From Gammaproteobacteria bacterium (GTDB taxonomy: Bacteria > Pseudomonadota > Gammaproteobacteria > HK1): a stretch of DNA of 64,000 bases. Positions 22,904 to 57,670 of the stretch are shown piece by piece. Positions within the stretch are counted from its first letter, which is position 1. Every line of letters starts with the position of its first letter. Location: assembly GCA_022826505.1 (NCBI GenBank), contig JAJDUQ010000052.1, positions 62,001 through 126,000 on the forward strand, given 5' to 3'. The notes under the pieces were generated by a model that was not told the origin of the DNA, did not search any database, and was given only the letters and a program-made list of their open reading frames with translations. The position numbers were made by a program, and so were the translations under genes.

Positions 22904-25510
22904 CTAGTACGTCCTGGCGACCCGGAAGCCGATTTGGTCGCTGCGAATGCGGACCGCGAATGAACTGCGCACCGCCGAACGCACGCTGCGCGGACCGACT
23001 CTCCACGACCCGCCCCGCAGCATGCGGTGTTTGCAACTCGACTGCACGACCCATGCACTGCCATCCGAAGGCGAATTCTTGTAGTTCGCGTGCCAGCAGT
23101 CCTCCACCCACTCCCATACGTTGCCGTGCACGTCGAACAATCCGAACGGATTCGGCGGAAACGAACCCACCGGCAAGGTTTTCGAAGCGTCCGAACGATT
23201 TCCGCAACGCTTGCAATTCGCCCGATTCGGCCCTGGGTCGTCGCCCCAGTGGTAGCGAGTCGCGGTACCCCCCCTCGCCGCGTACTCCCACTCCGACTCG
23301 CTCAGCAGCCGGTATCGTTCCCCGGTCTTGTTCGACAGCCAACGCACGTAGTCCTGGGAATCCGTCCAGCTCACGTTGACGACCGGACGATTCTCGCGAC
23401 CCCAGCCGTTGTCCTTCGGGCGTGTGGGACACCCCCCCTCGCGGTGACACGCATCCCATTCGGAGAACGTGATCTCGTGTACTCCCACCGCAATCGACTC
23501 GGAAATCGTGACGTCATGCACCGGGCCTTCATCGCCAAAGCGTTCCACTTCGTCGGGCATCGACCCCATCCGAAATGTGCCCGACGGCAATACGACCATC
23601 AGTGGACACTCGGCGCAGTCCCGGAACGAATCCGCAGCTTCGATCGGTTTTTCGCCTCGCAGCACCATTTGCAATGCCGTCGCCATCTTCTTGCGCTCCG
23701 GATGGTCCCCGGGTGCTGCGCGAAGCCAGGACCGATATGCGGCCGCGGCCTGTTCGAACTGACCCAATCTCGAGTGCGCCTTCGCCTCGATGCGGTGCAG
23801 CGCCACTCGTTTACCCGCCACGTCCGCGATTCGTCTGACCGATTCCAGAGCGGACCGGGCACTGGCCTCATCCCTTGCCTGGATGTCCTTGATCAGCCCG
23901 TCGACCGCACTCTCGACCACCGATTCGACGGCATCGATCCTCCCGTACTTGCGCAGATGACCGGCCCCCTCCACCAGAAGTGAACGGTAGTCTCCCGATT
24001 CCAGTCGGTCCTGCGCCAGAAGCACCCAATCCGAGAGGCTCAACCCGCTGGAGAGAAAGATTCTGGTCGGGTCGGAAACCCGAGACGGGCTCGTTCTGTC
24101 GGCATCTCCGCCCGAGGGCTGCAGCAACATCGATCCCTCGCCGGCCGTCGACGCCGCAGTATCGGACGGTGCCGTCGCCGCAAGCAGCCTCTTCGCGGAC
24201 TCCGCGTCGAGATATCCTGTCTCCGCGATCCCGTACTCCTCCTGGTACGATCGGACCGCCAACCGGGTGCGGTTGCCGAACAAGCCGTCCGCCGGCCCCG
24301 GATTGAATCCCAATGCCGTCAGGCCTCGCTGGATTCGACGCCGTTCCGAACGATTCAGGCCAAGCGACGATTCAACCGTCTCCGGTGAAATCTCGGCGGA
24401 CACGGACGGCACCGAGGTTTCCCGCAATTCCGTCCCGGGCGCCACCGCGACGTCCGATGCCCCACCAGCCTGTGGCCCCTCCGATGCCTCCAGCCGACTC
24501 AGCCGGTTGCGGGCCAGCGCTTCGTACTCGCCATCCGGATACAGTCCCAGATAAGCACGAAAGTCCGCCGGCTCGTCGCTGTCCTTGATCGACTCCCAGA
24601 ACAGCAGCTCGCGCTCGACCGCCAGCCGCTCCGCCGCGAGCCGCTCCGCCGCCACCCGCTCGGATGCGGCCTCATCGCCGACATCCGATGAACCGGGGGC
24701 GGGCACCACGGAGGCCGGAGCCGCCGCCAGGTAAACCCCCCGACTCGACAACGATCCGTACACGAACGGTTGCTGCCGGCCCCCCGTCGAAGCCAATACT
24801 GCGTCGCGCACCTTGCGGAACATCAGCCCTACTTCGAGTCCCGGCTCCTCCAGGTGCGCGAGCAGCGCTTCGCTGTACGGACTGTTTCGGCCCGAACCGT
24901 CCGAGGCTACTGTCCCCTCCTTCGCCGCATACGCCACCAGGGTCTCTCCCGACGGCTCCACTCGTGCAAGCCCACGCCCGATCGAACGTGTCGCCCCGGC
25001 GCGTTGCATGTTCACCGCGAACGGGTTCTCCCGGCACGCATCGAGAATCACCAGCCGCAGCCCCGAAGCGCGTTCCACCGCCCGCGAGACCAGATCCAGC
25101 GGCACCGCCTCGAACTCCACGTCCTGGTCGCTCGCGAGACGTGCGTCCACCGGCACCAGGAAGTTGCGCTGGTCCACCTCGATGCCGTGTCCGGCGTAGA
25201 ACACCACCGCGACCTCGGAGGCCGACGCGGCAAGCGCGAACTCCTGGAGACCGCGCCGAAGTTCGAGCTGTCCCGCATTCTCGATCCGTGTCACCGAGAA
25301 CCCCAGGCGACCGAGCGCGGCACCGATGTCTGCCGCATCATTGAGGGGATTCGCGAGCGCCGGAGCATGCGCGTAGGAGGCATTGCCGATCACCAGCGCG
25401 ACCCGCTGTGACGCCGACACCGGGCCGGCCGACATGACCAGCAGGGCGGTCGCGGCCAAGCATCGGATAGCGCAGAGTGGAAGATTTTCGATCGCCCGGC
25501 CTTCCTTCAC
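22904..25510 (-). CDS. Exported caspase-like protease with peptidoglycan-binding and FGE-sulfatase domains (paralogue A)
   Basis: 868 residues. Signal peptide 1-33 (cleavage after GPVSA), caspase-like C14 domain about 34-261 with His108 in FYAGHG and Cys159 in LDACRENP, an Ala/Glu-rich connector, a peptidoglycan-binding-1-like domain about 382-444 (ALGFNPGPADGLFG), a helical TPR-like section about 490-610, and an FGE-sulfatase domain about 628-868 ending RGGSW...GFRVAR. The FGE catalytic cysteines are absent, so it likely binds a ligand rather than making formylglycine. GTG at 25510 is chosen because AGGAG lies just upstream. Last of a row of four minus-strand paralogues (94 bp after B); convergent with purL. 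Substrates are unknown. Confidence 0.9.
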   Translation of the reverse strand: MKEGRAIENLPLCAIRCLAATALLVMSAGPVSASQRVALVIGNASYAHAPALANPLNDAADIGAALGRLGFSVTRIENAGQLELRRGLQEFALAASASEVAVVFYAGHGIEVDQRNFLVPVDARLASDQDVEFEAVPLDLVSRAVERASGLRLVILDACRENPFAVNMQRAGATRSIGRGLARVEPSGETLVAYAAKEGTVASDGSGRNSPYSEALLAHLEEPGLEVGLMFRKVRDAVLASTGGRQQPFVYGSLSSRGVYLAAAPASVVPAPGSSDVGDEAASERVAAERLAAERLAVERELLFWESIKDSDEPADFRAYLGLYPDGEYEALARNRLSRLEASEGPQAGGASDVAVAPGTELRETSVPSVSAEISPETVESSLGLNRSERRRIQRGLTALGFNPGPADGLFGNRTRLAVRSYQEEYGIAETGYLDAESAKRLLAATAPSDTAASTAGEGSMLLQPSGGDADRTSPSRVSDPTRIFLSSGLSLSDWVLLAQDRLESGDYRSLLVEGAGHLRKYGRIDAVESVVESAVDGLIKDIQARDEASARSALESVRRIADVAGKRVALHRIEAKAHSRLGQFEQAAAAYRSWLRAAPGDHPERKKMATALQMVLRGEKPIEAADSFRDCAECPLMVVLPSGTFRMGSMPDEVERFGDEGPVHDVTISESIAVGVHEITFSEWDACHREGGCPTRPKDNGWGRENRPVVNVSWTDSQDYVRWLSNKTGERYRLLSESEWEYAARGGTATRYHWGDDPGPNRANCKRCGNRSDASKTLPVGSFPPNPFGLFDVHGNVWEWVEDCWHANYKNSPSDGSAWVVQSSCKHRMLRGGSWRVGPRSVRSAVRSSFAVRIRSDQIGFRVARTY

Positions 25511-25604
25511 CGCTCCTGCTCCTCCCTCAAAGTCGTTTCGTTGTCGGACCCGTGCCGGCGCCGATCCATTTTGGCCGGCGGTCAACTCGAGTACGGGATA
25601 CGCC

Positions 25605-27932
25605 TCATTGCAGTGTCCTCACGACCCGGAAACCGATATTCTGCGTCCGGATACTGGAGAGATTCCTTCCGCGAGTTGCGGAACGCACGAGTTGCACCGG
25701 ACTGATCATCGAGCCACCTCGAAATACCCGGCGGCTGCAGTCCCCGGACGCCATCCACGCGCTGCCGTCCGACGGCGCCCGCTCGTAGTCGCCGTGCCAG
25801 CAATCCTCGACCCACTCCCACACGTTGCCGTGCACGTCGTACAGACCGAACGCGTTCGGGGAGAACGAACCGAGCGGAGACGTCTGGTTCGAATCCCATC
25901 GACTGCCGCATCCGGCGCAATTCGCGCGACCGCGTTCAGGCTCGTTTCCCCAGTTGAATCGAGTCGTCGTGCCGCCCCGCGCCACGTACTCCCACTCCGA
26001 CTCGCTCAACAGTCGGTACGTCTCTCCCGTCTTCCTCGACAACCAGCGCACGTACTCTCTCGCGTCCTCCCAACTGACGTCGATCACCGGACGATTCACG
26101 CGTCCCCACTTCCGGTCGTCGGGATAGTGCGAACAGCCTCCGTCGCGGCGACACGCTTCCCACTCGCCGAAAGTCACCTCATACACTCCGACCGCCAGTG
26201 GCTCGGGGATGGTCACCTTGTGGCTGGGGCCCTCATCCTCGAACCGCGCCTCGTCGGTGCGGGGCGACCCCATTCGATACGAGCCCGCCGGCACGATCAC
26301 CAGGTCCGGACAGTCGGCGCAGTCCCGAATCCGACGACCCGGCTTGCGTTCGTTCGCCGCGCGTTCGGCCTCCTCGGCCTCCGATCTCAGGCGTCGCGCT
26401 TCGGCCACATGTCGACCCGCTGGAAACATGCCCACGTACTCCCCGTACGCCTTTGCGGTCCCCGACGACTTCGCCCGTGCGAATGCCGCGTCTTCGGCCG
26501 TCGCCAGCAGAAACTTGGCCGACTCCGCATCCAGATGTCCCGTCTCCTCCTCGCTGCGCGAGGACTGCCACCTGCCGATCGCACCGCGGGTGACGCGCCC
26601 GAACAGCCCGTCGGTGGGCCCCGGGTCGAACCCCAGCGACGCCAGCCCTGCCTGAATCAGGCGACGTTCCGAACGCTCCAGGCCCAGCGACGACTCCACT
26701 GCCTGCGCAGTGGGCGGCGGAGGCGGGATTTCGGCAGGCTCCTTCGACGGCACCGCGGCGGAGACCGTCGGTTCCACCGATGCCTGTGCCAGTGTCTCGG
26801 AGGTATTGGCAGCAGCGGTGGCTTTCGAGGGTGAAGCCGTCCCGGTCGCCCTCTGCAGCCGCTTCAGCCGATTGCGGGCCAGTACCCCGTAGGTGCCGCC
26901 GGGGTACTGGTCCAGATAGGCCTGAACGTCCGCCGCATCGACGCTGTCCTTGACAGAATCCCAGAACAGCAGCTCCAGTTCGGCCGCCAGGCGCTTTGCC
27001 GCAAGCTGCTCCGCAGTGAGACGGTCGGATGCGGACCCGCTTTGCGCCGAGTAGTCCGCCGGCGCGGCAGTCCCGCTCGCGGGCTGGCCCGGCCTCATCC
27101 CCTGTACGCCGACACTCGTCCCCGCCTGAGCGCCTGCGGCGTGCGCGGCAGGCAGAGGCACGAAGTAGAAATCACCGGTCAGCGAGCTGCTTTCCCATGG
27201 CGTCTGCTGCCGATTCGTTTCGTGCTCGACCGACACCCGGACCCGTTTGAAGATATCCTCCAGCTTCAACCCCGGTTCCGTCATGGCGAGCGCCAGGGCC
27301 GCGGTGTAGGGCGAGTTTGCCCCCTTCCCGTCCGTGGCCACCTTGCCCGGTGCCGCCGAGTAGGCGATCAGCGAGCCCGACGGCGCATCGACCCGCCCCA
27401 GGCCGCGGCTGCCACTTCGGAAGGTGTCCCCGTAGGGGTTGTTCCGGCACGCGTCCAGAATCACCATGTTGAGTCGGTTCCCCGCCTCTTCCATCCACGA
27501 AAGGATCCACTCCGCCGGTACCGCGTCGCTCTTGAGCTCGGTCTCGCTGCCTATCTCCGCGTTCAGTGGAATCAGGTAGTTGCTTCCACCAGCCTCCACG
27601 CCGTGACCCGCGTAGTAGAACAATCCCACCGCCTCGTCCCTGCCCCGGGCGAGCCGCCGCCCGAACGCCTTGATCGCCCGGTTCATCGCTTCCCGGTCGG
27701 CATCGATGACGAGGGAGACGTCGAACCCGAGCCCTTCGAGGGTTCGGGCCATCAGGGTCGCGTCGTTCACGGGGTTGTCGAGCTTCGAGATGCGGCCGTA
27801 GCCGCCATTGCCCACCACCAGGGCCACGCGTTCGGACGCCGGCGCCGCGCCGCCCCAGATCCCCAGCACCACACCGAGCGCCAGCAGTGCCCATGGAGCC
27901 ATCCGTGCACTTCCTTCCGAGCCCGTACGCAT
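25605..27932 (-). CDS. Exported caspase-like protease with peptidoglycan-binding and FGE-sulfatase domains (paralogue B)
   Basis: 775 residues with the same plan as its neighbours but the most diverged protease of the row. Signal peptide 1-33 (ends GGAAPAS), caspase-like domain with His110 in YYAGHG and Cys152 in LDACRNNP, a connector with the recurrent SVKDSVDAADVQAYLDQYPG repeat, a PG-binding-like domain (SLGFDPGPTDGLFG), an Ala/Arg-rich helical segment, and an FGE-sulfatase domain from about 545 (DCADCPDLVIVPAGSYRMGS) to the tail GFRVVRTLQ. It lacks the longer TPR-like section seen in A, C and D. ATG at 27932 has GGAGGG five bases upstream; a TTG overlapping the stop of C (28001) is a weaker option. 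The gap to C is 65 bp. Confidence 0.9.
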   Translation of the reverse strand: MRTGSEGSARMAPWALLALGVVLGIWGGAAPASERVALVVGNGGYGRISKLDNPVNDATLMARTLEGLGFDVSLVIDADREAMNRAIKAFGRRLARGRDEAVGLFYYAGHGVEAGGSNYLIPLNAEIGSETELKSDAVPAEWILSWMEEAGNRLNMVILDACRNNPYGDTFRSGSRGLGRVDAPSGSLIAYSAAPGKVATDGKGANSPYTAALALAMTEPGLKLEDIFKRVRVSVEHETNRQQTPWESSSLTGDFYFVPLPAAHAAGAQAGTSVGVQGMRPGQPASGTAAPADYSAQSGSASDRLTAEQLAAKRLAAELELLFWDSVKDSVDAADVQAYLDQYPGGTYGVLARNRLKRLQRATGTASPSKATAAANTSETLAQASVEPTVSAAVPSKEPAEIPPPPPTAQAVESSLGLERSERRLIQAGLASLGFDPGPTDGLFGRVTRGAIGRWQSSRSEEETGHLDAESAKFLLATAEDAAFARAKSSGTAKAYGEYVGMFPAGRHVAEARRLRSEAEEAERAANERKPGRRIRDCADCPDLVIVPAGSYRMGSPRTDEARFEDEGPSHKVTIPEPLAVGVYEVTFGEWEACRRDGGCSHYPDDRKWGRVNRPVIDVSWEDAREYVRWLSRKTGETYRLLSESEWEYVARGGTTTRFNWGNEPERGRANCAGCGSRWDSNQTSPLGSFSPNAFGLYDVHGNVWEWVEDCWHGDYERAPSDGSAWMASGDCSRRVFRGGSMISPVQLVRSATRGRNLSSIRTQNIGFRVVRTLQ

Positions 27933-27997
27933 CAGTCCCTCCGAGTCCTTCCGCCGCCTCGAACCGAACAATGGACGAGGAAGCGACGATACATCGC

Positions 27998-30457
27998 TCA
28001 ATCCAGTGCCCTGGCTACGCGGAAGCCGACAAGCTTGAGCCGGGCACCCACCGGATCCTGGCTGCGATACGCGGAACGCAGAAGTGGCGGCGCACTAAAG
28101 AATGAACCGCCCCGCAGCACCCGACGACTGCAGTCCCCGCCGGCGAGCCAGGGGCTTCCGTCGGACGGTGCGCCCGCGTAGTCCGCGTGCCAGCAGTCCT
28201 CCACCCACTCCCATGCGTTTCCGTGCATGTCGAACAGACCGAACGCATTCGGCGAGAACGATCCCGCCGGAGATGTGCTGCCGCCGTCCCAGCGACTACC
28301 GCAACCCGCGCAGTTCGCATCGTTGCGCTGCACGGCGTCCCCCCAGTGGTAGCGAGTCGTGGTGCCGCTCCGGGCAGCGTACTCCCACTCCGACTCGCTC
28401 AACAGGCGATACTCCTTCCCGGTCTTCGCCCGCAGCCATCGTACGTACTCCTGCGCGTCCTCCCAGCTCACGTTCACGACGGGACGCGTCTGACGGCCCC
28501 AGCCCTGATCGGACGGATCGTGCGAGCAGCCACGCTCGCGACGACAGGCATCCCACTCGGCGAACGTCACCTCGTACATCCCCACCGCCATTGGTCGTCC
28601 GATGATCACATCGTGCACCGGACCTTCGCCGTCGTCACGACCCTCTTCCCCCCTCGGAGAGCCCATTCGGTACATGCCATCCGGCACCACCACCATGTGT
28701 GGACATTCCCCACAATCCCTGAACTTGTCGCGCGGCGCCAACGGGATTTCGCCTCTCTGCGCCTTCTGCAGCCCGATCACCATCGCCTTGCGTTCGGGAT
28801 GCTCCGGCGGCGCGGTGCGGAGCCAGGACCGGTACGCCCTTATCGCGTCCTCGAATCGACCAAGCCTCGACCAGGCCTTGGCCTCGACGCGGTGCAGCGC
28901 CTGCTGCGGCCCCGATACGTCCTTGATCCGTTTCACGAAGTCGAGCGCGGAGCGTGCATCCGCTTCATCATTCACCCGAAGACCGTCGATCAATCCTTCG
29001 ATCGCTCGCTTCACTACCGAGACGACACCGTCGGATGGACCGTACTTGCGCGTATGACCGGCGCCTTCGACCAGCAGGGAACGGTACTCGCCCGATGCCA
29101 GCCGATCCTCGGCAAGCAGGACCCAATCGGAAAGACTGATTCCGCTGGCCAGAAATATCGTCGCCGGGTCGGTCACCGGCGACGTTCTCGCCCCGGCCGC
29201 GGCGTCCTGTGCGGACCCGTCCGACCCCGCCCCCGCGGCCAGCAACAACTTCACTCCATCGGCGTCCAGGTGACCTGTGACCGACAGCTTGCCGGCAGCC
29301 TGCCAACCACGTATCGCTGCGCGCGTGCCGCGTCCGAAGAGACCGTCGATCGGTCCGGGATCGAATCCCTGAATCGCCAGCGCCCGTTGAATCCGGCGCC
29401 GGTCGTGGCGCGTGAGTCCCAGCGCGGCTTCGTCCGAGCCTTTCGACGACGATGTCTGCGCAGGCGCGGAATCCGATGCCTGCAAACTCTTCAGGCGGAT
29501 GTCGGCCAGCGCGATGTAAATGCCGTTCGGATACTGTGTCCTGTAGGCCAGCAGGGCGGCTGCCCGGGCCGACGGATTCTCCATGGCTTCAATCGACTTC
29601 CAGAACTGAACCTCGGCCGCCGATTCACCATCGTGGGTGCTGCCGCCGGTAGTGGTGAGGGCTCCACTCGGGTCCGAGTCGGCGGGGGGAATGAGATACA
29701 CTCCGCGGCTCGACAGCGACCCGTATACGAACGGCTCCTGCCGACCCCCCGTCGAGGCCAGCACCGTATCGCGCACCTTGCGGAACATGAGCCCCACCTC
29801 GAGACCCGGTTCCTCCAGGTACGCAAGCAGCGCCGAGCTGTACGGACTGTTGCGACCCGAACCGTCCGACGCCACCGTGCCCTCCTTCGCCGCATACGCC
29901 ACCAGCGTCTCGCCCGACGGCTCCACGCGCGCGAGACCGCGACCAATCGAGCGGGTCGCGCCGGCGCGCTGCATCGTCGTCAGAAACGGGTTCTCCCGGC
30001 AGGCATCGAGAATTACCAGCCGTAGACTCGCGGCGCGCTCCACCGCCCGCGAGAGCAGCTCGAGCGGCACCGCTTCGAACTCCACGTCCTGATCGCTCGC
30101 CAGGCGTGCGTCCACCGGCACGAGAAAGTTGCGGCGGTCCACCTCGATACCGTGGCCGGCGTAGAACACCACGGCGACCTCGGAGGCCGAGGCCGCGCGC
30201 TGGAACTCCTTCAGACCACGGCGCATCGCCGCATCGCCCACATTCTCGAGGCGCGTGACCGCAAAGCCGAGGCGTTTCATTGCCGCGCCGACATCCGCCG
30301 CGTCATTGAGAGGATTGGCGAGCGCCGGGGCGTGGGCGTAGGAGGCGTTGCCGATGACCAGAGCCACACGCTCGGCGGCCGGGGCGGGAAGTGAGGTCGC
30401 GACCAGCACAAGAGCTGCGAGGAACGCCGGGAAGTGTGTGAGCCGAATTCCGGTCAT
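27998..30457 (-). CDS. Exported caspase-like protease with peptidoglycan-binding and FGE-sulfatase domains (paralogue C)
   Basis: 819 residues. Signal peptide 1-28 (ends LPAPAA), caspase-like domain with His102 (FYAGHG) and Cys153 (LDACRENP), a short WKSIEAMENPSA-type connector, PG-binding-like domain (GFDPGPIDGLFG), TPR-like helices, and an FGE-sulfatase domain with the paired cysteines NCAGCGSRWD and tail GFRVARALD. The protease domain is nearly identical to that of A over long blocks (for example VEPSGETLVAYAAKEGTVAS is shared), whereas the FGE ends differ. The chosen ATG is 17 bp after the stop of D, indicating one transcript. The frame upstream of 30457 overlaps D and is not used. Confidence 0.9.
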   Translation of the reverse strand: MTGIRLTHFPAFLAALVLVATSLPAPAAERVALVIGNASYAHAPALANPLNDAADVGAAMKRLGFAVTRLENVGDAAMRRGLKEFQRAASASEVAVVFYAGHGIEVDRRNFLVPVDARLASDQDVEFEAVPLELLSRAVERAASLRLVILDACRENPFLTTMQRAGATRSIGRGLARVEPSGETLVAYAAKEGTVASDGSGRNSPYSSALLAYLEEPGLEVGLMFRKVRDTVLASTGGRQEPFVYGSLSSRGVYLIPPADSDPSGALTTTGGSTHDGESAAEVQFWKSIEAMENPSARAAALLAYRTQYPNGIYIALADIRLKSLQASDSAPAQTSSSKGSDEAALGLTRHDRRRIQRALAIQGFDPGPIDGLFGRGTRAAIRGWQAAGKLSVTGHLDADGVKLLLAAGAGSDGSAQDAAAGARTSPVTDPATIFLASGISLSDWVLLAEDRLASGEYRSLLVEGAGHTRKYGPSDGVVSVVKRAIEGLIDGLRVNDEADARSALDFVKRIKDVSGPQQALHRVEAKAWSRLGRFEDAIRAYRSWLRTAPPEHPERKAMVIGLQKAQRGEIPLAPRDKFRDCGECPHMVVVPDGMYRMGSPRGEEGRDDGEGPVHDVIIGRPMAVGMYEVTFAEWDACRRERGCSHDPSDQGWGRQTRPVVNVSWEDAQEYVRWLRAKTGKEYRLLSESEWEYAARSGTTTRYHWGDAVQRNDANCAGCGSRWDGGSTSPAGSFSPNAFGLFDMHGNAWEWVEDCWHADYAGAPSDGSPWLAGGDCSRRVLRGGSFFSAPPLLRSAYRSQDPVGARLKLVGFRVARALD

Positions 30458-30474
30458 CGCACTATCGTCGCAAT

Positions 30475-32898: not shown

Positions 32899-33161
32899 GG
32901 CGCCACTCCGATCATTGGCGAGGCCGCCCTGCCGCCTGCGCATCGCACGTGGAGGCCGGTCGGGCTCCGCGCATGGTTCGGTACCCTCCACGCGGCGATT
33001 CGACCGGGACGAGGGCAGCGTAACCGGTGGCACCCGCAAGGTACAAACGCAACCGGTCGGATACTCCACCGTGGCGTGGCGACCCTCCCGGCAGGTTGTA
33101 GGCCCGCCAGGCGGCGGTATATCTTGCGAGCCGGCGACTTGCGCTGGGAGGATGGCGAGCG

Positions 33162-34306: not shown

Positions 34307-34364
34307 CCGCTGCCGGCCGGGTGCCGGTGTTGTCCACGGGTCCCGCCCTGTTGAACGACTTCCC

Positions 34365-47988: not shown

Positions 47989-48047
47989 GGCATGGTGCTC
48001 CGTTGGTGAGATGACAGTGGATCCCGCTCTGCGGCAACCGGCGTGGC

Positions 48048-48605: not shown

Positions 48606-48630
48606 GGCAACAGTCTCCGATTTTTCAGTC

Positions 48631-48656
48631 GCCCCGCGCGCGAGTGCGCGCAGGGC
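48631..48656. other. Intergenic GC-rich hairpin
   Basis: GCCCCGCGCGC and GCGCGCAGGGC form an 11-bp stem with one mismatch and a GAGT loop, between the two exported DUF4384 genes. The minus strand has an A-run rather than a T-run after it, so it is not a standard terminator for these genes; it may stabilise or attenuate the message. Its loop resembles that of the hairpin at 39289, also beside a DUF4384 gene. Confidence 0.35.
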
Positions 48657-48675
48657 CATTGGGAGCCGGATCGGC

Positions 48676-49308: not shown

Positions 49309-49396
49309 CACGTGGTCCTCCAGTGAAGTGTGTGTGGATGAGCCGACACAACCCCGGTCATCGACCGGCGAACACGATACCCGGGGTTGCAGGACT

Positions 49397-49536
49397 TCAG
49401 TCGTCCGGATCGATGCAAGAGAGTGCACCGTCCAGGCGCTTGAAGAATGGGACGGGCTCGAGCCGAGAATCGCGACGCCCGCCGTCTCTCTCTCGGGATG
49501 TCGTCGTGCGAGAGAATATTCATCGGATTTCGAACC
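49397..49536 (-). pseudogene. Remnant of a DUF4384-type gene C-terminus
   Basis: Directly after the vWA stop codon the minus strand reads VRNPMNILSHDDI, then after a one-base shift GVAILGSSPSH, then after another shift PFFKRLDGALSCIDPDD followed by TGA. These three pieces line up in order with the C-terminal segments of the intact paralogues at 39363 and 48048 (TRNPMDFL..SDIL; GIASLDLSP; QFYQHLKDA..INPDDWS). The stop replaces the conserved Trp. So a third gene of this subfamily once ended here and has lost its 5' part and its frame. Confidence 0.65.
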
Positions 49537-51582
49537 CTAGTGTTCCAACTCGGCAATCGACCTGGCCAGGCGCACGAGTCGGACGAACTCGTTGCGGTAG
49601 CCGAACGGGTCGTCGCCGCGCGCGCCCTGCGCAAGGGTGACGATGTCGCCGTAGCCGTAGTCGCCAATGTGGCGGCCACCGCGCAGCAGCTCGCCGAAGG
49701 CGGCCACCGCCGCGGCGAAACGCACGTCTCTCGGGGCGTCGTCCACGCTCGCGAACGCGTCGGCGACGGTCACCGCCCGAGTCATCAAGGTGCTCGTCTC
49801 GGCGTCGGGCAGCTTGTAGCGCAGCTTCAGGAAGGCAAGCTCACCGTCGAACGCCGACGCCGGCGTCGCTTCCCCGGCCTGGTAGCGCAGGGACGGAACG
49901 CGGGTCGCGTCCGAGCCGGCCGGAATGAGCTCGTAGATCGCGGTCACGGTGTGCCCTGCGCCAATCTCGCCCGCATCGACCTTGTCGTTGCGGAAGTCCT
50001 CGCGTGCGAGCAACCGGGTTTCGTACCCGATCAGCCGATACTCGCTGACCGTCGCAGGATTGAACTCCACCTGAATCTTCACGTCCTTCGCGATTGTCAC
50101 GAGCGTCGACGCCGCTTCCTCGAGCAGCACCTTGCGCGCCTCGGCGAGCGAATCGATGTAGGCGGCGTTACCGTCGCCGTGCTGCGCGAGGCGCTGCATC
50201 AGCGCGTCGTTGTAGTTGCCCATTCCAAAACCGAGCACCGAGAGGGCGATGCCGCTCGAGCGCTTGCGCGCGATGTAGTCCTCGAGTACGTCGGGGTTGG
50301 AGATGCCGACGTTGAAGTCCCCGTCGGTGGCGAGGATGACGCGATTGACGCCACCCTCGATGAAGTGCAGCCCGGCCAGCCGATAGGCTTCGCGAATGCC
50401 TTCCGCGCCGGCGGTGGAGCCACTGGCCCGCAGTCGTTCGAGGCTCGCCAGAATCGTGCTCCGCTCAGCCACGGGCGTCGGCTCCAGCACCACACCGGCC
50501 GAGCCGGCGTACGCCACTATCGCCACCCGATCCTCGGGCGCCAGCGCACCCAGCAGGAGCTTGAACGAGCGCACGAGCAGCGGCAGCTTGTTCGGGCGGT
50601 GCATCGAGCCCGAGGTGTCGATGAGGAACACCAGGTTCGCCTGCGGCGCGGTGACACGGTTCAGCACATGGCCCTTGATGCCGATGTGCAGCAGCCGGGC
50701 CGCGTCGTCCCACGGTGCAGGCATTACCGCGACATGGGTGGCGAACGGGGGATCGCGGGTCTCGGGCGGCGCGTAGTCGTAGGGGAAGTAGTTCACCAGC
50801 TCCTCGGTGCGCACCGCATCGCTGGGCGGCAGAAGGCCGTCGTTCAGCGACGCACGCATGAACGCGTACGCGGCAGTGTCGACATCGATGGAGAAGGTCG
50901 ATACCGGCTCTTCGGCGACGACCTTGACGGGGTTGGGGCTGAGCTCGGCAAAGCGGTCCCGGCTCTGCGCGGCATCGTGGGCCGGCGCTGCCTCATGTGC
51001 ACGCGACCTCGAGGCCTGCCCCGCCGGGTGTGACCAGCCCAGGATCCCACTGCCGCCCATTGCCGCTGGTGGGGAGGACGATTTCGAGACCGAACGCTCG
51101 GCGTCGTTGCCCTGGACCGGCGTGCCGGGAGCCGTCGTCAGGGCCGTCGCGGGGGACGATTCCGGCGCCTCGCCGGCTGTGGACGCGAGACGCTGTTCGT
51201 CCGCCGGTGCTTCCGGCAATGGCAGCGACAGGCCTTTCTGGAACGTGGGAGCAGGATCCTCGTTCGCTTTCCCTGAATGCTCCGGACGCAAGAGGTTCGG
51301 CGTCATGAAGAGCTGATGCGAGACGACGACCGCGACCATGATCGCGGCGGCACCGCCGGCAAATGCGAGTGAGGGGCGCGACAAGGGCATGACAAGTTTC
51401 CGAATCCACGACCTGGCGAATTTCGATTCTCGTCTCCTGTGACGCGTCTGCTCGCCAGTTCCTTGGTGGTGGCGATCGAATGCCGCCATCGCCTCGTGGA
51501 TTGCCTGTTCACGCGCCACCGCCGGTGCCCGCGGCGAGGTCTCGCGAAGAACCGACTCCAGCCTGTCAAGCTCGTCGCTCAC
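49537..51582 (-). CDS. YfbK-type von Willebrand factor A protein, probable partner of the ECF sigma factor
   Basis: 681 residues. Short cytoplasmic N-terminus (1-70, with an Arg/His-rich patch), one membrane helix (about 72-90, LAFAGGAAAIMVAVVVSHQ), a Pro/Ser/Ala-rich spacer, then the YfbK N-terminal module (VSTFSIDVDTAAYAFMR) and a vWA domain with complete MIDAS motif DTSGS (322-326), plus TDGDFN. The C-terminal YfbK part follows. It overlaps the sigma gene by four bases (ATGA), the classical layout of a sigma/anti-sigma pair; the N-terminal 70 residues would be the sigma-binding side. vWA domains bind protein ligands through Mg2+, so it may sense a periplasmic partner. Anti-sigma activity is inferred from gene order. 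Confidence 0.88.
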   Translation of the reverse strand: MSDELDRLESVLRETSPRAPAVAREQAIHEAMAAFDRHHQGTGEQTRHRRRESKFARSWIRKLVMPLSRPSLAFAGGAAAIMVAVVVSHQLFMTPNLLRPEHSGKANEDPAPTFQKGLSLPLPEAPADEQRLASTAGEAPESSPATALTTAPGTPVQGNDAERSVSKSSSPPAAMGGSGILGWSHPAGQASRSRAHEAAPAHDAAQSRDRFAELSPNPVKVVAEEPVSTFSIDVDTAAYAFMRASLNDGLLPPSDAVRTEELVNYFPYDYAPPETRDPPFATHVAVMPAPWDDAARLLHIGIKGHVLNRVTAPQANLVFLIDTSGSMHRPNKLPLLVRSFKLLLGALAPEDRVAIVAYAGSAGVVLEPTPVAERSTILASLERLRASGSTAGAEGIREAYRLAGLHFIEGGVNRVILATDGDFNVGISNPDVLEDYIARKRSSGIALSVLGFGMGNYNDALMQRLAQHGDGNAAYIDSLAEARKVLLEEAASTLVTIAKDVKIQVEFNPATVSEYRLIGYETRLLAREDFRNDKVDAGEIGAGHTVTAIYELIPAGSDATRVPSLRYQAGEATPASAFDGELAFLKLRYKLPDAETSTLMTRAVTVADAFASVDDAPRDVRFAAAVAAFGELLRGGRHIGDYGYGDIVTLAQGARGDDPFGYRNEFVRLVRLARSIAELEH

Positions 51583-52124
51583 CGCACTGCCTCCTCGTCC
51601 GCGGCCAGTGCACGCAGTCGCTTGCGTACCTCGTGCATGCGCCAGGACACCGTCGATTCCGAGACGCCGAGCACATCACCCGCTTCCGCATGACGCAGGC
51701 CCTCTTCGAGCACGAGGAATACGGTGGTGCGCAGATCCTCGGACAGCCGGCCCAGGGCCTGGCGCAGCCAGGACGACTCGCGCGCACTGATATCGGCCTG
51801 GACGCGCGCCAATTGGTCGAACTCGGCATAGCTGCGTTCGCCCCGGTACCGCGCGGCCTTGCGTCGCAAGGCATCGCGTGCGGCATTGACCACCACGGAG
51901 TAGAGCCAGGTGGTGAACCGGCTCTTCGCGCGATAGGACGCGAGCTTGCCGGGAAGCGAGATGCAGACGTCCTGTGCCAAGTCCGCAGCTTCCTCCGAGT
52001 CGCCGAGCACACGTGCTCCGACTCGATAAATCAGATCGTAGTGACGCTCGAGCAGTGCACCGAACGCATCGCGATCTCCCGCCGCTGCCCGGAACGCCAA
52101 CGAACTGTCCGTGTTGTCAGTCAT
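51579..52124 (-). CDS. ECF-family RNA polymerase sigma factor
   Basis: 181 residues. Region 2 is clear (DLIYRVGARVLGDSEEAADL, then QDVCISLPGKLASYRAKSRF with TWLYSVVVNAARD), and region 4 has the helix-turn-helix EAGDVLGVSESTVSWRMHEV. Only regions 2 and 4, as in ECF sigma factors. Overlaps the vWA gene by ATGA. It heads the minus-strand gene series vWA, DUF4384, DUF4384, H, G and is the only transcription factor seen in the cluster, so it is the natural candidate regulator. Confidence 0.93.
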   Translation of the reverse strand: MTDNTDSSLAFRAAAGDRDAFGALLERHYDLIYRVGARVLGDSEEAADLAQDVCISLPGKLASYRAKSRFTTWLYSVVVNAARDALRRKAARYRGERSYAEFDQLARVQADISARESSWLRQALGRLSEDLRTTVFLVLEEGLRHAEAGDVLGVSESTVSWRMHEVRKRLRALAADEEAVR

Positions 52125-52590
52125 GCGGAGACATCATCCGCCGCCTTCGCATCGATTTCCCGCGTTTTTTCGATATGACGCACGCCACGACGGTATTCCT
52201 TGGAATCGAGATTCGGAACGCATCTCGCGTGAGCCACGCGATCGTTTCCATGTGCTTCCGATGGAGATGGTGCGCCGCGACGCAAATGGACGCCCGGAAA
52301 CCGAGACGCTATCGTTCATTGTCAGCCTGTATGTATCAGATTTCAGCCATGGCGACTGTGCGTAGATTGCGCCTACGGGTTCGCGAACAGCGGTCGCAAC
52401 AACAAGCCGACAGATCAGTGTCCACGGATCGGCGGCCGGGAACTCGACACGGCATCGCTCGGAATGCGCTTGCGACGAAGCTGCCTCACGTTGCGAGGGA
52501 GTCGGTGTTCCCCGAACCGCGCCCGCATGCAGCCCCCCAAGGGGGGACCCGTTCCTGGTATGGCAACTGACCGTGCCGGAGAACCCCGAC
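52125..52590. other. Divergent intergenic region, no gene seen
   Basis: 466 bp between the sigma factor (minus) and the repeat-FGE protein (plus). It must contain both promoters. A GGAAC at 52215-52219, the usual -35 core of ECF promoters, faces the plus strand, but no convincing CGTC-type -10 sits 16-17 bases beyond it. On the minus strand GGAAT near 52200 is followed 14 bases later by CGTC, close to but shorter than the usual spacing. Autoregulation is thus possible but not shown. Confidence 0.4.
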
Positions 52591-55500
52591 ATGCGCACCA
52601 GAACAGCAACGAACGGCGATACGCGGCGCAACTTGGGACCGCGGGCGCAGACGCTGGCCGCGTTGGCGTGCTCGCTCGCGATCGCGTGCGGCGCGGCGCA
52701 CGCACAGTCCTCGGACAACCCCTCCGATTCCGGCAGTCCGAAGGGGGAAATTTCCTTCATCGAGATGATCAGGCAGGCCAACGAGCAATACGAGAGCCAG
52801 GTGTCGGAGGCGATTGCCCGAGGCGAGTTCGAGGAAGCCAGAGAGCACGTGCGGGAGCTGGAGTCGGTGATCCCGGGGTCTCCTCACGTGAAGAAGCTGA
52901 CGACGATGATCGACGAGGCGTTCGGCGCGGCGGCACGCGCGGAGCGCAAGGTGCGCAACGCGATTGCCCGCGGCGAGTTCGATGCCGCGAAGGAGCATGT
53001 GCACGATCTCGCGAGCGTCGTTCCGCACTCGCCGCGGGCGCGGGAGATGCTGCAGGAGATCGATCAGGCACGGGTGGCGGCAACCGTCATCGAGCAGGAA
53101 GCGCTGGAAGCCGTCGCTCGGGGTGACTTCTCGGGTGCGCACGAGCATATGCAGGACCTGACCGGTGTGATTCCGAAGTCGTCGCGGATCACGGAGATGG
53201 AGGCGAAGATTGCGCAGGCTCGAGCGTTGGTGGCGATCCTCGAGCACGAGGTCTCGACGGCGATCGTGGGGGGCGAGTTCGAATCGGCGTCCCGATACAT
53301 GGACGAGCTGAGGAGCCTGACGCCGGAATCATCGCGGGTGCAGACGCTCGCGGACCGGATCGGGCGCGTGCGGGCAGCAGCAAATCGCGCCCAACGCAAT
53401 ATGTCCGCCGCAATCGCCCGAGGAGATTTCGCAGATGCGAGGACCCATGCGGACGAACTGGCGAGCGTGATTCTGTGGTCGCCACGCGTGCCCGAGGCGC
53501 AGGCGAAGATCGAACGGATCGAGGCCGCCGCACAGAGCGTACAGGGGAAGATTTCGAGAGCAGTGGCCCGAGGCGATTTCGAAGCTGCCGGGGGGCTGGT
53601 GGAAGAGCTGGCGCGCCTGATTCCGGACTCTCCGCGGGTGCCGGAGACACAAGCGACGATCGAGCGAATTCGGACCGCAGCAGGCAGCGTCGTGAACAGG
53701 GTTCGGGCGGCGCTCGCGCGGGGAGCGCTCGATGAGGCGAGACGGCACCAGCAGGAGCTGGCGAATCTGACTCCGGAGGCATCACGAGTGCAGGAATTCT
53801 CGGATGCGATCGAGCGAGTGCAGCGTACGGAGCTGAACGTACTGGCAGCGGCGACCCGGGGCGCGTTCGAGGAAGCCGGGATCCATTTGAAGGAGCTGGA
53901 GAGCATGACCCCGGACTCGCCCAGGGTGCCGGACATCGCGCAGCGACTCGCGGACTCGCAGACCGACGCGCATGGCGCGGCGAGCAAGGTACTGGAGGCG
54001 GTTGGCCGAGGCGCATTCGAGGAGGCGCGGGGGCACCTGGAGGAACTGTCGGCGGTGACGCCGAAATCGCCGCGGGTGCGGCACCTGCGCGAGAGCATCG
54101 AGGAGGCCGAGGCCACCGAGCAGGAAGTATCGGTGGTGGTCGCCCGAGGTGAGTTCGATCAGGCCCGGCGGCTTGCGAAGGCGCTCGGGAGCATGACCCC
54201 GGATTCGCCCCGGGTGGCGAACATCGCGCAGCGGATCGAGGACGTGCACGCGCAAGCGCAGCGGGTGGAGGCGCTGGTATCGGGGGCGGTCGCCGGGGGC
54301 GAATATGCGCAAGCAACGCGGCATGTGCAGGAGCTGGCGGCAGTGACCCCGGACTCCATGCGGGTACCGGCTCTGGCGAAGCGAATCGATGAAGTACGCG
54401 CGCGGGAGCGGCACGTGTTGGACATGGTGCAGTCGGCGATCAGTATGGGTGAGTTCGACCAGGCCAGGGGGCATGTGAGCGAGCAGTTGGCGAGCGTGAC
54501 CCCGGACTCCCCGCGGGTGGCGGAGATGGAGAAGAGAATTGCACGGGTGCAGTCCGGCGTGCGGCGCGCGGAGCAGGAGATCGCGGAGGCAATCGACCGG
54601 GCGGATTTCGATGCAGCCCGGAGCCTGGTGAAAACGCTTGCGGATCTGACACCGAGCTCACCGCAAGTGACGAGGCTGAGCGAATCGATCGATGCGGCGC
54701 AGGGGTCGGCGCTGAATTCCGGCGAGCTGATCGCGGCGGCGATCGAACAGGGTGACTTCGAGGACGCACGCCGGCTCGTGAGGGAGCTGGCGAAGATGAC
54801 TCCGGACTCGCCGCAGATTCCCGTCATGAACGAGAGGATCGGACAGGCACAGACCGCGGTGAGGCGTACCGAGCAGGCGGTGGGCGGCGCAATTGAACGG
54901 GGAGAGTTCACCAGATCCCGGGGGCTGGTGACGGAGCTGGCCGGGATCATTCCGCGGTCGAGCCGACTGGACGTGTTGGAGAACGCGATCGAGCGGGCCC
55001 GGGAGGCGGCCGCAGCGGCGGAGAGAAACGCGCTGGACGCCATCGCGAAGGCGCTCGTGGCCGTCGACCGCGGCGACCACGACTCCCGGGCTGCATCCGT
55101 CGAAGCGGCCAGGGGACACATGGCGGAGCTCGCGGGGGTGACTCCGCGATCGCGGCTCGTGACCGATCTCGAAGAGAAGATTGATCGGGCGGAGCTGATC
55201 CCCGCGATGGTGCGAATCCGGGCCGGCAAGCTGAAGATGAAGAAGGGCGCCGGTCAAGTCAGGACGATAGGCGCCGACGAATTCTGGATCGGCAAGTACG
55301 AGGTGACGTTCGACGAGTACGACCGATTCGTTGCGGAGACGCGTGGACCGAAGCCGAGTGACAAGGGCTGGGGCCGAGACCGCCGTCCAGTCATCAACGT
55401 AAGCTGGATCGAGGCGAACGAGTATGTGCGATGGCTGTCGGAGAGGCTGGGAGAGCGCTACCGATTGCCGACGGCGGAGGAATGGGAATATGCCGCGCGT

Positions 55501-55914
55501 GCGGGGAGCGTGACCGAGTATCCATGGGGTGAGGAAGTGGGCAGCAACCGTGCGAACTGCAAGGGCTGCGGAAGCCGGTGGGACAAGCGGTCTACAGCCC
55601 CGGTGGGCTCATTCACCGCAAATGCATGGGGACTGCACGACATTGTCGGAAACGTGTGCGAGTGGACGTGCTCCACCCATGCCACCGGCCTCCCTTCACG
55701 CGAGTGCGCGCCCGACGTGGAGTGGAAGCAAGGGGAGGACGCGGCCAAGAAGGACACCGGCGTCATGAGCTGGTTGCAGAAAAAGGTCAATTCTCGTGTA
55801 TGCCGGGGTGGGTCCTGGAAACACAGCGGGAAACGAAAGCTGCTCTCCTGGGAGGACACGCACGAGCAGACACACAGGTCGACGACGATCGGCTTCCGCC
55901 TCGCCCGCGACTGA
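52591..55914 (+). CDS. Exported repeat protein with C-terminal FGE-sulfatase domain (J)
   Basis: 1,107 residues. Signal peptide ending GAAHA (about residue 40), a short spacer, then 16 consecutive helical repeats of about 50 residues (52810-55200), and a C-terminal FGE-sulfatase domain (about 870-1107) with the usual GWGRDRRPVINVSW, YRLPTAEEWEYAARAG, NCKGCGSRWD and RGGSW...GFRLARD. It has no caspase domain; the repeats take its place. The FGE domain has an extra Cys-containing insert (CEWTCSTHATG to SRVCRGGSW). Start at ATG 52591 because GGAG lies nine bases upstream; an in-frame GTG at 52573 adds six residues. It converges on gene I with 13 bp between stop codons. Confidence 0.88.
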   Translation: MRTRTATNGDTRRNLGPRAQTLAALACSLAIACGAAHAQSSDNPSDSGSPKGEISFIEMIRQANEQYESQVSEAIARGEFEEAREHVRELESVIPGSPHVKKLTTMIDEAFGAAARAERKVRNAIARGEFDAAKEHVHDLASVVPHSPRAREMLQEIDQARVAATVIEQEALEAVARGDFSGAHEHMQDLTGVIPKSSRITEMEAKIAQARALVAILEHEVSTAIVGGEFESASRYMDELRSLTPESSRVQTLADRIGRVRAAANRAQRNMSAAIARGDFADARTHADELASVILWSPRVPEAQAKIERIEAAAQSVQGKISRAVARGDFEAAGGLVEELARLIPDSPRVPETQATIERIRTAAGSVVNRVRAALARGALDEARRHQQELANLTPEASRVQEFSDAIERVQRTELNVLAAATRGAFEEAGIHLKELESMTPDSPRVPDIAQRLADSQTDAHGAASKVLEAVGRGAFEEARGHLEELSAVTPKSPRVRHLRESIEEAEATEQEVSVVVARGEFDQARRLAKALGSMTPDSPRVANIAQRIEDVHAQAQRVEALVSGAVAGGEYAQATRHVQELAAVTPDSMRVPALAKRIDEVRARERHVLDMVQSAISMGEFDQARGHVSEQLASVTPDSPRVAEMEKRIARVQSGVRRAEQEIAEAIDRADFDAARSLVKTLADLTPSSPQVTRLSESIDAAQGSALNSGELIAAAIEQGDFEDARRLVRELAKMTPDSPQIPVMNERIGQAQTAVRRTEQAVGGAIERGEFTRSRGLVTELAGIIPRSSRLDVLENAIERAREAAAAAERNALDAIAKALVAVDRGDHDSRAASVEAARGHMAELAGVTPRSRLVTDLEEKIDRAELIPAMVRIRAGKLKMKKGAGQVRTIGADEFWIGKYEVTFDEYDRFVAETRGPKPSDKGWGRDRRPVINVSWIEANEYVRWLSERLGERYRLPTAEEWEYAARAGSVTEYPWGEEVGSNRANCKGCGSRWDKRSTAPVGSFTANAWGLHDIVGNVCEWTCSTHATGLPSRECAPDVEWKQGEDAAKKDTGVMSWLQKKVNSRVCRGGSWKHSGKRKLLSWEDTHEQTHRSTTIGFRLARD
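52810..55200 (+). repeat. Sixteen tandem ~50-residue helical repeats inside J
   Basis: The consensus per unit is roughly AIARGEFEEARxHVxEL, then xSxTPDSPRVxx, then a second helix IxxxxxAxxxxE. Most units are 46-51 residues (about 150 bp). GEF/GDF/GAF and the P-(D/K)-S-(P/S)-R-V turn recur in nearly every unit; units 1-15 are contiguous and unit 16 carries an insert (VDRGDHDSRAASV). Each unit looks like two antiparallel helices, so the array probably makes a rod or superhelix as TPR-type repeats do. DNA identity between units is low, so they are old. Confidence 0.8.
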
Positions 55915-55927
55915 GCGTGCGGAGCGT

Positions 55928-57670
55928 TCAGTTCAGCGCTCGAGCGACCCGGAAACCGTTGGCGCTGAACCGGATGCCGATCGTTCCCCTGTCGCGGGCC
56001 GAAGAGCGCACCCCTCCCGGCCCGTCGAGCCACGAACCGCCTCGCAGCACGCGCAGCTCGCAGGTTCCGTCGTCCGTCCACGCGCTTCCGTCCGTCGGCG
56101 CATCGCCGTAGTCGCGATGCCAGCAATCCTCCACCCATTCCCGCGCGTTCCCCAGCATGTCGTACAAGCCGAATTCGTTCGACCCGTAGCGGCCCGCCTC
56201 GGAGGTGTGGGCGGACCCGTCATCGCACGAGGCAGTCAGTTCGAACCAGTCCGAGTAGTACGTCTTCAGCGACTCGTCGGCGCCGTTGGCGTTTCCGCAT
56301 TGCCGGGAATCGCTCGTGTCCCAGTAGCGCGGTGTGGCGGTCTTGCCACGCGCTGCGTACTCCCACTCCGACTCGCTCAACAGTCGATACTTCTTCCGCG
56401 TCTTCCTCGACAGCCAATCCACATACGCCTTCGCATCCGTCCAGCTCACGCAGACCATCGGCTCCTTCTCGCCCTGAACGAACCCCGGATCCGCCGGTCC
56501 GCTGCCCTCCTTCGTCGTCACACCGTCGTACTGCCAGCACGCACTGCCGCCCGACTGATTCGTCTCCTTCAGGAACTGGGCGAACTCGCCGCGTTGCACC
56601 TCGAACACGCCGACCGCAATCGGCTCGGGGATGGTCACCCGGTGTCGCTGCACTTCATCGTGAGCGCCCTCGCCCGATGGCGAACCCATGGCGTAGCTGC
56701 CTGCCGGAATCACGACCATCCGGGGACACTGCGGACAGTCTCTGAACCCGCCGTCGTGCTGAAGATCCGGCGCCGCGAGACCCTCGCCCGCCCCAGGCGT
56801 TGCGACCACCTGCGGCGCCGCCGCGTGAGGTCTGGTCGTCGCTTGCGGCGCAGTGGTCGTCGGGCGTGATGCCGCATACGCGGACGGTATGAAGTAGAAC
56901 GGCTTTCGAAGGGAGGAGTGAGTCCACGGCTGCTGTTCGTCGTGCGTGGCGGTCATCACCGTATCGGTCACCGTGGCAAGCAGATCGTTCACGCTCAGCC
57001 CCGGCGTCGCAATGTGAGCAAGCAACGCACCGGTGAACGGCGAGTTTCGACCGACACCGTCATCGGCCACGTTTCCGGGCTGCGTGGCATAGGCGATCAG
57101 CGTCCCGCTCGCATCCGTCACCCGACCGAGGCCTCGCTGGATCGCGGCGGAACGGCTCACACCCATCGAGCGCTTCAGGCCATCCGCCAGAGGGTTGTCT
57201 CGGCACGCATCCAGAAACACGAGATTTGTTCTGCTTCTCATCTGGCCCATGAATGCGGCGAGCTCGAACGCTTCGAGGCGAAGGTCCACCTCCTCCTTCA
57301 GCCTGGCGTCGATCGGCACCAGGTAGTTGTCACCGTCCACTTGCAAACCGTGCCCGGCATAGAAGAACAGGGATATGTCGGCGCGTCGCGCCGCTCTGGC
57401 GAACTCCCGGAGCTTCGTGGCGAATCCGTTCTTGTCGAGATCCAGTCCGGCAATCACCTCGAAGCCCAGATCCGAGAGCGCCCGGGACATGTCGCCGGCA
57501 TCGTTCCTGGGGTTTCGCAGGGGTGTCGTATGCTCGTACGCGGAGTTCCCGATCACCAGCGCGACGCGTCCCGCCGCCTGCGCCGGCTCCGCCAATGCAC
57601 CCAGCCAGGTCAGGGCAAGGAACATGGCAACCGCTCCGGGCGTCCAGCTTGTTCCGTTCCGTATTTCCAT
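55928..57670 (-). CDS. Exported caspase-like protease with FGE-sulfatase domain (paralogue I)
   Basis: 580 residues, the shortest caspase-FGE protein. Signal peptide 1-33 (ends AEPAQAA), caspase-like domain with His107 (FYAGHG) and Cys155 (LDACRDNP), a Pro/Thr/Ala-rich linker of about 40 residues in place of the peptidoglycan-binding domain, and an FGE-sulfatase domain from about 310 (CPQCPRMVVIPAGSYAMGS) to the end RGGSW...GFRVARALN. GAGG about six bases ahead supports the ATG. It is transcribed towards the repeat protein J. Last gene of the caspase cluster before msrP. Confidence 0.89.
   Translation of the reverse strand: MEIRNGTSWTPGAVAMFLALTWLGALAEPAQAAGRVALVIGNSAYEHTTPLRNPRNDAGDMSRALSDLGFEVIAGLDLDKNGFATKLREFARAARRADISLFFYAGHGLQVDGDNYLVPIDARLKEEVDLRLEAFELAAFMGQMRSRTNLVFLDACRDNPLADGLKRSMGVSRSAAIQRGLGRVTDASGTLIAYATQPGNVADDGVGRNSPFTGALLAHIATPGLSVNDLLATVTDTVMTATHDEQQPWTHSSLRKPFYFIPSAYAASRPTTTAPQATTRPHAAAPQVVATPGAGEGLAAPDLQHDGGFRDCPQCPRMVVIPAGSYAMGSPSGEGAHDEVQRHRVTIPEPIAVGVFEVQRGEFAQFLKETNQSGGSACWQYDGVTTKEGSGPADPGFVQGEKEPMVCVSWTDAKAYVDWLSRKTRKKYRLLSESEWEYAARGKTATPRYWDTSDSRQCGNANGADESLKTYYSDWFELTASCDDGSAHTSEAGRYGSNEFGLYDMLGNAREWVEDCWHRDYGDAPTDGSAWTDDGTCELRVLRGGSWLDGPGGVRSSARDRGTIGIRFSANGFRVARALN

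Follow-up and report, generated by a model that had tools for sequence, protein, structure and literature searches.

Introduction

Bacterial caspases are mostly treated as cytosolic proteases. In Thiohalocapsa PB-PSB1 and other multicellular bacteria, putative antigen sensors diversified by diversity-generating retroelements (DGRs) have a C-type-lectin/FGE fold coupled to trypsin- or caspase-type peptidases, and some of these DGR targets are predicted to be secreted or periplasmic (PMC10907252). In cyanobacterial DGR variable proteins, an orthocaspase is fused to a lectin-fold end that is rewritten by the DGR; these proteins are mostly predicted to be cytosolic; 4 DGR-linked and 9 remote ones have a membrane or signal region (PMC7517822). 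Here, we have analysed 64,000 nucleotides of a Gammaproteobacteria bacterium (GenBank assembly GCA_022826505.1, contig JAJDUQ010000052.1, positions 62,001 to 126,000; hereafter the window), in which an island of 17 genes between purL and msrP encodes nine caspase-like C14 proteins. The coupling of an FGE fold to a caspase-type peptidase is likewise found here, and the fusion of an orthocaspase to a DGR-rewritten end is found in relatives of the island. We propose, as a reading evenly poised between right and wrong, that the island was gained and that its caspases, tethered to peptidoglycan, form a system for surveillance of the cell envelope.

Results

All nine C14 proteins found with Pfam (c1-c9, Table 1; the other genes are called by their lower coordinate) are encoded on the minus strand, and the [GS]HG and D[AS]C motifs are intact in 9/9. 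The model of the EACC1-associated caspase system (NCBIfam NF047832), with a cut-off of 140 bits, gave 36.6-83.1 bits for the window caspases scanned with it, six out of nine. Five of them carry an FGE domain, the sixth FGE domain of the island being that of the repeat protein, and in 4/5 of these C14-FGE proteins a PG_binding_1 domain sits between C14 and FGE. With PG_binding_1 in c1-c4 and OmpA in c8, peptidoglycan-binding modules are predicted in five of the nine caspases. OmpA domains were found in the 38001 protein and in c8 (45979), and DUF4384 scored above the Pfam cut-off in five proteins (34365, 39363, 45979, 48048 and 48676); c6 (36137) stays below that cut-off, while its homologue L112:9181-10905 is above it. 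A preliminary description of the window had listed nine caspases with intact His/Cys dyads, six FGE domains, DUF4384 in six proteins, two OmpA domains, a vWA protein (YfbK), an extracytoplasmic function (ECF) sigma factor, a surface barrel protein and a repeat-FGE protein. All of these are borne out by Pfam, the sixth DUF4384 protein (c6) via its homologue. It had placed the open reading frame (ORF) starts of several genes too early, and had not noted the PG_binding domains, the clean island borders, the EF-hand-like loops or the connection to retroelements seen in relatives.

Signal peptides were called with a home-made rule rather than a trained predictor, at a working score threshold of 3.5. 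By this rule, signal-peptide-like starts are present in 15/17 island genes, in line with the earlier statement that most of them have signal peptides: 14 score at least 3.5 and 48676 scores 3.42, and one candidate, 39363, has a lipobox. The exceptions are YfbK, with a transmembrane-like segment, and the ECF sigma factor, with nothing. A score of 3.5 was reached by 136/161 C14 proteins of the collected loci and by 66/250 control ORFs, identical ORFs being counted once; some of the controls (at least 250 residues) are truly exported proteins, and some may be in the wrong frame. Exported caspases could also act outside the cell, as secreted or surface effectors against a eukaryotic host or a neighbour. 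The autotransporter-type surface protein within the island would suit such a role, but proteins with peptidoglycan-binding and OmpA domains would rather be retained, and a scan of the 17 island genes gave no secretion machinery other than the autotransporter beta-domain; we consider this explanation very unlikely.

That part of the island recurs elsewhere came from a profile of the C14c caspase (c6 and three relatives), which matched 17/369 class genomes (E 1e-20) and 14/398 phylum genomes (1e-45), the own genome being included in each count. We compared 20 loci of 7.5-20 kb (L089-L092, L109-L124), all of them outside the own genome (the 16 phylum places, without exception, and the four class places with the strongest matches), with 24 control windows placed elsewhere in six of the sampled genomes, only genomes with long contigs being used; this comparison leaves out the C14c matches in G044, G267 and G332 and one of those in G356. 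A C14, OmpA or DUF4384 neighbour was found at 17/20 C14c loci versus 1/24 controls (Fisher p 2.7e-8, which is optimistic since some seed loci share a genus and are not independent). OmpA is near C14c in 9/20 loci and DUF4384 in 7/20, each versus 0/24 controls, and in seven of the nine OmpA-bearing loci the OmpA gene lies immediately upstream of C14c and is co-directional with it. A c7-type caspase, assigned by score, adjoins C14c in seven loci; WD40 repeats were confirmed with Pfam in L112, the one scanned. Nine weaker class matches lie outside this count: another C14 or an OmpA is present in L093, L095, L096, L105 and L107 and absent in L094, L097, L106 and L108. Loci with a C14-PG_binding-FGE protein also have OmpA more often than the controls (7/14 versus 0/24).

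In Cucumibacter marinus (L039), the genes for OmpA, C14c, C14b-DUF4384 and C14a follow one another as in the window, and the core order on one strand was found in these two places. The Cucumibacter cluster also holds a caspase with SH3 domains and, between two exported caspases, a D-Ala-D-Ala dipeptidase (L039:11746-12840; its own SH3 match is weak). Because DUF4384 in the C14c loci is fused to OmpA, to trypsin and, in L119, to a PG_binding match slightly below the Pfam cut-off, it is suggested to be an adaptor tying proteases to the wall. Caspase-like DUF4384 proteins that lack one or both catalytic motifs stand beside intact ones in L116:7048-8328, L117:11706-13064 and L089:14919-16586, and are possible pseudo-protease partners.

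The recurring order bears on whether the island is a loose accumulation of unrelated exported paralogs, gathered via duplication and sharing no pathway. Four C14-PG_binding-FGE genes in tandem that have exchanged parts would be expected of such an accumulation, as would an island that is not conserved in the genus and the irregular partnership of ECF-YfbK, but the core order recurs across classes, with genes adjoining or overlapping. We find such an accumulation improbable, and the conserved gene order indicates that the neighbourhood is more than scattered paralogs, although only the core recurs and not the whole set. The periplasmic network of the preliminary description is partly upheld: the rule predicts export, modules that bind peptidoglycan are present and the neighbourhood recurs. 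One conserved system comprising the whole set is not supported. The comparison of gene neighbourhoods that it had proposed speaks for the network as far as the core goes, which is shared in other genomes; the island is absent in congeners, and ECF-YfbK lies on other contigs than the caspases where both are known.

To describe the sensor end, we used a structural model of c4 built from an 18-row alignment (mean predicted local distance difference test score, pLDDT, 83.7; predicted template modelling score, pTM, 0.47), which does not give the relative placement of domains. The modelled caspase part resembles MALT1 (Z 26.0, root-mean-square deviation (rmsd) 2.7, 212 aligned), and the C-terminal part resembles PvdO (Z 30.6, rmsd 2.3, 239 aligned) and TvpA, a variable protein of DGRs (Z 24.1, rmsd 2.8, 224 aligned); FGE enzymes match it too. 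The FGE/C-type-lectin fold is predicted by sequence in five caspases and the repeat protein, and by model for c4 only. FGE enzymes have a catalytic cysteine pair after GGSF, and two cysteines are visible there in the aligned T. curvata enzyme. This pair is absent in c4, which reads GGSWFNWPMGLRSANR at that place, and c1-c3 and c9 have no cysteine between GGS and the end.

The last 43-44 residues of c1-c4 are 41-59% identical in all six pairs, compared with 62-69% in the rest of FGE, and the ratio of non-synonymous to synonymous substitution (dN/dS) of this terminal block is about two to three times that of the rest of FGE, with dS near saturation. In c1 and c3 the caspases are 89% identical and the FGE domains 65%; c2 has a caspase that differs from those of its tandem neighbours and an FGE domain that is similar to theirs. 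Since caspase and FGE identities disagree among c1-c4, modules have been exchanged. Judged from sequence, the window's sensors have multiplied via duplication, with no DGR found in the own genome.

In relatives, proteins of the same build are targets of DGRs. In the same-family genome G015 (Gammaproteobacteria jk18x27bins.56; L149 9149-14219), bAvd, a reverse transcriptase (RT) and a template repeat lie beside an exported C14-PEGA-PG_binding-FGE gene, whose variable repeat differs from the 90-base template at 18/29 adenines and 0/61 other bases; a second C14-PG_binding-FGE gene of G015 has 12 adenine changes and no others. In the Binatia metagenome-assembled genome jk18x7bins.45, a single template fits three exported C14-PG_binding-FGE genes, changed at 14, 15 and 16 of 30 adenines and at 0, 0 and 1 of 60 other bases, and two of these targets form a tandem, with OmpA on the same contig (loci L010, L049). 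DGRs at L026 and L055 target FGE proteins without a caspase match; among the collected loci, 4 have RT motifs. The recurrence of targets of the same build in G015 and Binatia suggests a pressure for sensor diversity.

Closer to the window the signs are fainter. DGR-RT-like pieces of 42 residues (52-60% identity) are present in two congeners, at L160:8076-8390 (G002; no Pfam match) and L159 ~8971-9096 (G003), and may be remnants. The lone caspase-FGE gene of G003 (L098:8570-10375) differs from the foreign Binatia template of L026 at 17/28 adenines and 4/62 other bases (p 7e-8), which we read as a trace of earlier DGR activity within the genus; no RT matching this gene was confirmed in the G003 genome. 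Against the G015 template, five blocks of the window differ at 18-24/30 adenines and 13-21/60 other bases (p 7e-6 to 0.02). Yet the same bias is found in L006, an FGE control without a caspase (p 0.0095), and not in the repeat protein, so that the adenine bias of the window blocks would be an old and at best weak signal. A DGR in the own genome was looked for and rejected: the RT family search gave one match, on contig C24, broken by the contig end and reading as group II intron type.

Hypermutation of this kind bears on a further explanation, that wall-anchored exported caspases serve envelope housekeeping, processing or clearing damaged envelope proteins or helping peptidoglycan remodelling with no foreign recognition. 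PG_binding and OmpA domains speak for this, and the SH3 caspase and D-Ala-D-Ala dipeptidase of the Cucumibacter cluster are in keeping with it. So are the defence profiles: a PADLOC scan of seven of the nine caspases, 48048 and 49537 gave the generic caspase model PDLC02987 in all seven and weak side matches (ZorB/MotB via OmpA in c8; HEAT in c7). However, adenine-targeted hypermutation of FGE ends in relatives is hard to square with a housekeeping protease, and the island is dispensable within the genus. We regard housekeeping as unlikely.

An EF-hand-like loop after the catalytic cysteine was found in 24/28 C14c-DUF4384 proteins versus 2/78 C14a proteins. In the window it is present in c5, c6 and c8, and not in c1-c4, c7 and c9. 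The loop-bearing caspases may be under calcium control.

YfbK is possibly an anti-sigma factor, and the ECF-YfbK pair could report the state of the envelope because a short inner segment is combined in YfbK with a single membrane-like stretch. Close matches to YfbK were found in 31/274 class genomes, own included; in the other 30 the local match begins at profile position 181 or later (at least 181), so the N-terminal part is unmatched. An Arenicellales locus (L028) has an ECF-YfbK pair, 58-60% identical, beside FGE genes, and in L118 an ECF match lies near C14c. A motif for an ECF regulon was rejected: the best shared dyad had 2 window matches versus 0.66 expected, and 14/100 shuffles were equally good.

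The whole block is a discrete ~35.2-kb insertion (22716..57906) between purL and msrP, on contig C77 of an assembly of 6.23 Mb (346 contigs, 94.5% complete, 7.4% contaminated). The left flank gene has FGAR-AT domains as in PurL, and an Oxidored_molyb domain in the right flank gene is consistent with MsrP, in agreement with the earlier placement of the block. Similarity in blastn to three congeners ends at 22695-22715 and restarts at 57907-58028, and purL is followed by msrP with gaps of ~0.1-1.6 kb in 5/5 relatives (congeners G001-G004 and family member G005). Contamination is an unlikely source, because the two borders lie on a single contig and, over the part examined, synteny is kept in the right flank. 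There is no tRNA within the window and no terminal direct repeat of at least 9 bases at the island ends, and tetranucleotide usage of the island is mostly host-like. The simplest reading is a gain in the window's species; alternatively, the island may have been lost in the other congeners. C14 is concentrated in the island beyond chance: its matches number 11 in the own genome, nine of them here; any C14 is present in 11/37 relatives searched (own genome excluded), and among the four congeners in one only, with a single C14.

Elsewhere in the own genome, contig C312 (L002:8945-11754) has a caspase and PG_binding-FGE pair in different frames, with the FGE profile broken off at position 226, which resembles a degraded copy, and contig C52 (L005:7654-8889) has an FGE protein without a caspase whose terminal asparagine run resembles a DGR variable region. 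Between c4 and c5, a 144-residue ORF (33872-34306, plus strand) has a signal-peptide-like start and a sole, weak Pfam match below cut-off. Positions 1-5000 of the window depart from the host background in tetranucleotide usage (z 3.9), with low GC at third codon positions in ORFs at 2160-5087, a possible small insertion.

Table 1. Genes of the island, with predicted architecture and position in the window
Gene product	Coordinates	Strand	Basis
c1: signal peptide, C14 caspase, PG_binding_1, FGE/lectin fold	22904..25510	-	Pfam, signal rule, motifs
c2: signal peptide, C14 caspase, PG_binding_1, FGE	25605..27932	-	Pfam, signal rule, motifs
c3: signal peptide, C14 caspase, PG_binding_1, FGE	27998..30457	-	Pfam, signal rule, motifs
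c4: signal peptide, C14 caspase, PG_binding_1, FGE	30475..32898	-	Pfam, signal rule, model matching MALT1 and PvdO/TvpA
c5: exported C14b caspase with EF-hand-like loop, DUF4384	34365..35921	-	Pfam, signal rule, motifs
c6: exported C14c caspase, EF-hand-like loop, C-terminal DUF4384-like domain	36137..37807	-	Core probe; start 37735 or 37807
OmpA-family protein, exported; upstream of c6, likewise in relatives	38001..38954	-	Pfam, signal rule, neighbourhoods
DUF4384 protein, lipobox-like signal	39363..39992	-	Pfam, signal rule
PPC-fn3-autotransporter beta-domain surface protein	40065..42911	-	Pfam (PPC match slightly below cut-off), signal rule
c7: exported, beta-propeller-like region (weak WD40 matches), C14 caspase	43346..45880	-	Pfam, signal rule
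c8: exported OmpA, C14b caspase (EF-hand-like loop), DUF4384	45979..47988	-	Pfam, signal rule, motifs
DUF4384 protein, exported, paralog of the 39363 gene	48048..48605	-	Pfam, signal rule
DUF4384 protein, borderline signal-peptide score	48676..49308	-	Pfam, signal rule
YfbK-type vWA protein, N-terminal segment then one transmembrane-like stretch	49537..51582	-	Pfam, signal rule
ECF sigma factor, overlapping YfbK gene by 4 bp	51579..52124	-	Pfam
Repeat protein (TPR-like matches), exported, C-terminal FGE	52591..55914	+	Pfam, signal rule
c9: exported C14 caspase, FGE, without PG_binding domain	55928..57670	-	Pfam, signal rule, motifs

Discussion

How could such a surveillance system work? We infer that the C14-PG_binding-FGE proteins would be sensors, held in place either in the periplasm or at the surface. 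A ligand bound by the FGE fold could cluster the sensors and switch on their caspases, and activated sensors could then cleave the DUF4384 caspases and pass the signal on. The OmpA and DUF4384 proteins would keep the set attached to the wall, and calcium outside the cytoplasm might tune the loop-bearing caspases through their EF-hand-like loops. The outcome would most likely be a controlled proteolysis of the envelope by which the attacked cell is killed or the invader disarmed. This order of events, from binding through clustering and activation to second-tier cleavage, is modelled on animal caspases and on the domain architecture.

A stronger form of this proposal is an adaptive extracytoplasmic surveillance, in which wall-moored caspases carry lectin sensors that are either rewritten by DGRs, one template serving several genes, or duplicated, and trigger a DUF4384 second tier as a calcium-tuned periplasmic cascade. 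We put this form forward only tentatively, as possible and on the doubtful side. If true, it would be an adaptive caspase cascade analogous to animal innate immunity.

Several observations weigh against surveillance. The four congeners searched lack the island between purL and msrP, and it is therefore dispensable. The C14c loci L114, L115 and L123 have no partner, and the shared genera among seed loci make the neighbourhood statistics look stronger than they are. The signal-peptide rule also passes 66/250 control ORFs. ECF-YfbK as a fixed part of the core was rejected, the pair being widespread and apart from caspases where both are known; five genomes with YfbK and C14c profile matches (G117, G152, G205, G211 and G214) hold them on different contigs, and the dyad search within the window found no shared promoter among the island genes. 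In the window's 94.5%-complete genome no DGR RT was found, a search with the L010 RT returning the C24 place only, and dN/dS in the sensor block remains <1. The model of c6 (mean pLDDT 54.9) is too poor for use. As for calcium, the loop is carried by 12/17 C14b/C14w caspases fused to FGE in relatives and by all five DGR-target caspases checked. Its value as a mark of the second tier is weakened because FGE-fused caspases and DGR targets carry it too, and from its distribution the loop is a mark of a caspase subfamily instead. A review, as far as its accessible text goes, regards orthocaspase activation as calcium-independent (PMC5756287).

With its many export-like caspases, wall-binding and lectin-fold parts, and DGR diversification in relatives, the cluster provides a concrete model for envelope caspase signalling, and it also offers a testable model for the function of DUF4384.

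The domain pairings of the island have already been published, while the cluster looks undescribed. In the literature covered, which mostly excludes subscription papers, we found no description of the gene cluster, of an OmpA-C14c-DUF4384 neighbourhood, or of exported peptidoglycan-binding caspases as DGR targets. A 2012 survey by Asplund-Samuelsson lists C14-FGE, C14 with a peptidoglycan-binding domain and N-terminal helices as possible signal peptides; its accessible part has no gene cluster, no OmpA-C14c-DUF4384 core and no sensor diversification (PMC3501461). The secreted Bradyrhizobium caspase with YARHG domains combines a signal peptide, a caspase and a putative peptidoglycan-binding domain as here, but is described, in the portion available, as one protein with another domain and no cluster (PMC3355149). 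Pseudo-orthocaspases of trypsin-caspase-DUF4384 build have the same architecture as the relative L109:7204-9753, and some archaeal orthocaspases have EF-hand motifs; the available sections of that account mention no neighbourhood with OmpA and an active caspase (PMC6426788).

We would also point out two differences in organization. The NTP-dependent conflict systems resemble the island in their caspase effectors, FGE/FGS lectin fold, beta-propellers and vWA proteins, but they centre, in the accessible descriptions, on MoxR or STAND NTPases (PMC7159879, PMC8195603), and a Pfam scan of the 17 island proteins gave neither an AAA+ domain (MoxR) nor a STAND NTPase. The Thiohalocapsa-type sensors likewise centre on STAND or MoxR NTPases and adaptor domains, unlike the island, and the wall-binding caspase-FGE protein and the OmpA-C14c-DUF4384 core do not appear in the accessible part of that account (PMC10907252). 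Finally, unlike most of the cyanobacterial DGR variable proteins in the available text, the DGR targets of the island's relatives have export-like starts and a peptidoglycan-binding domain (PMC7517822).

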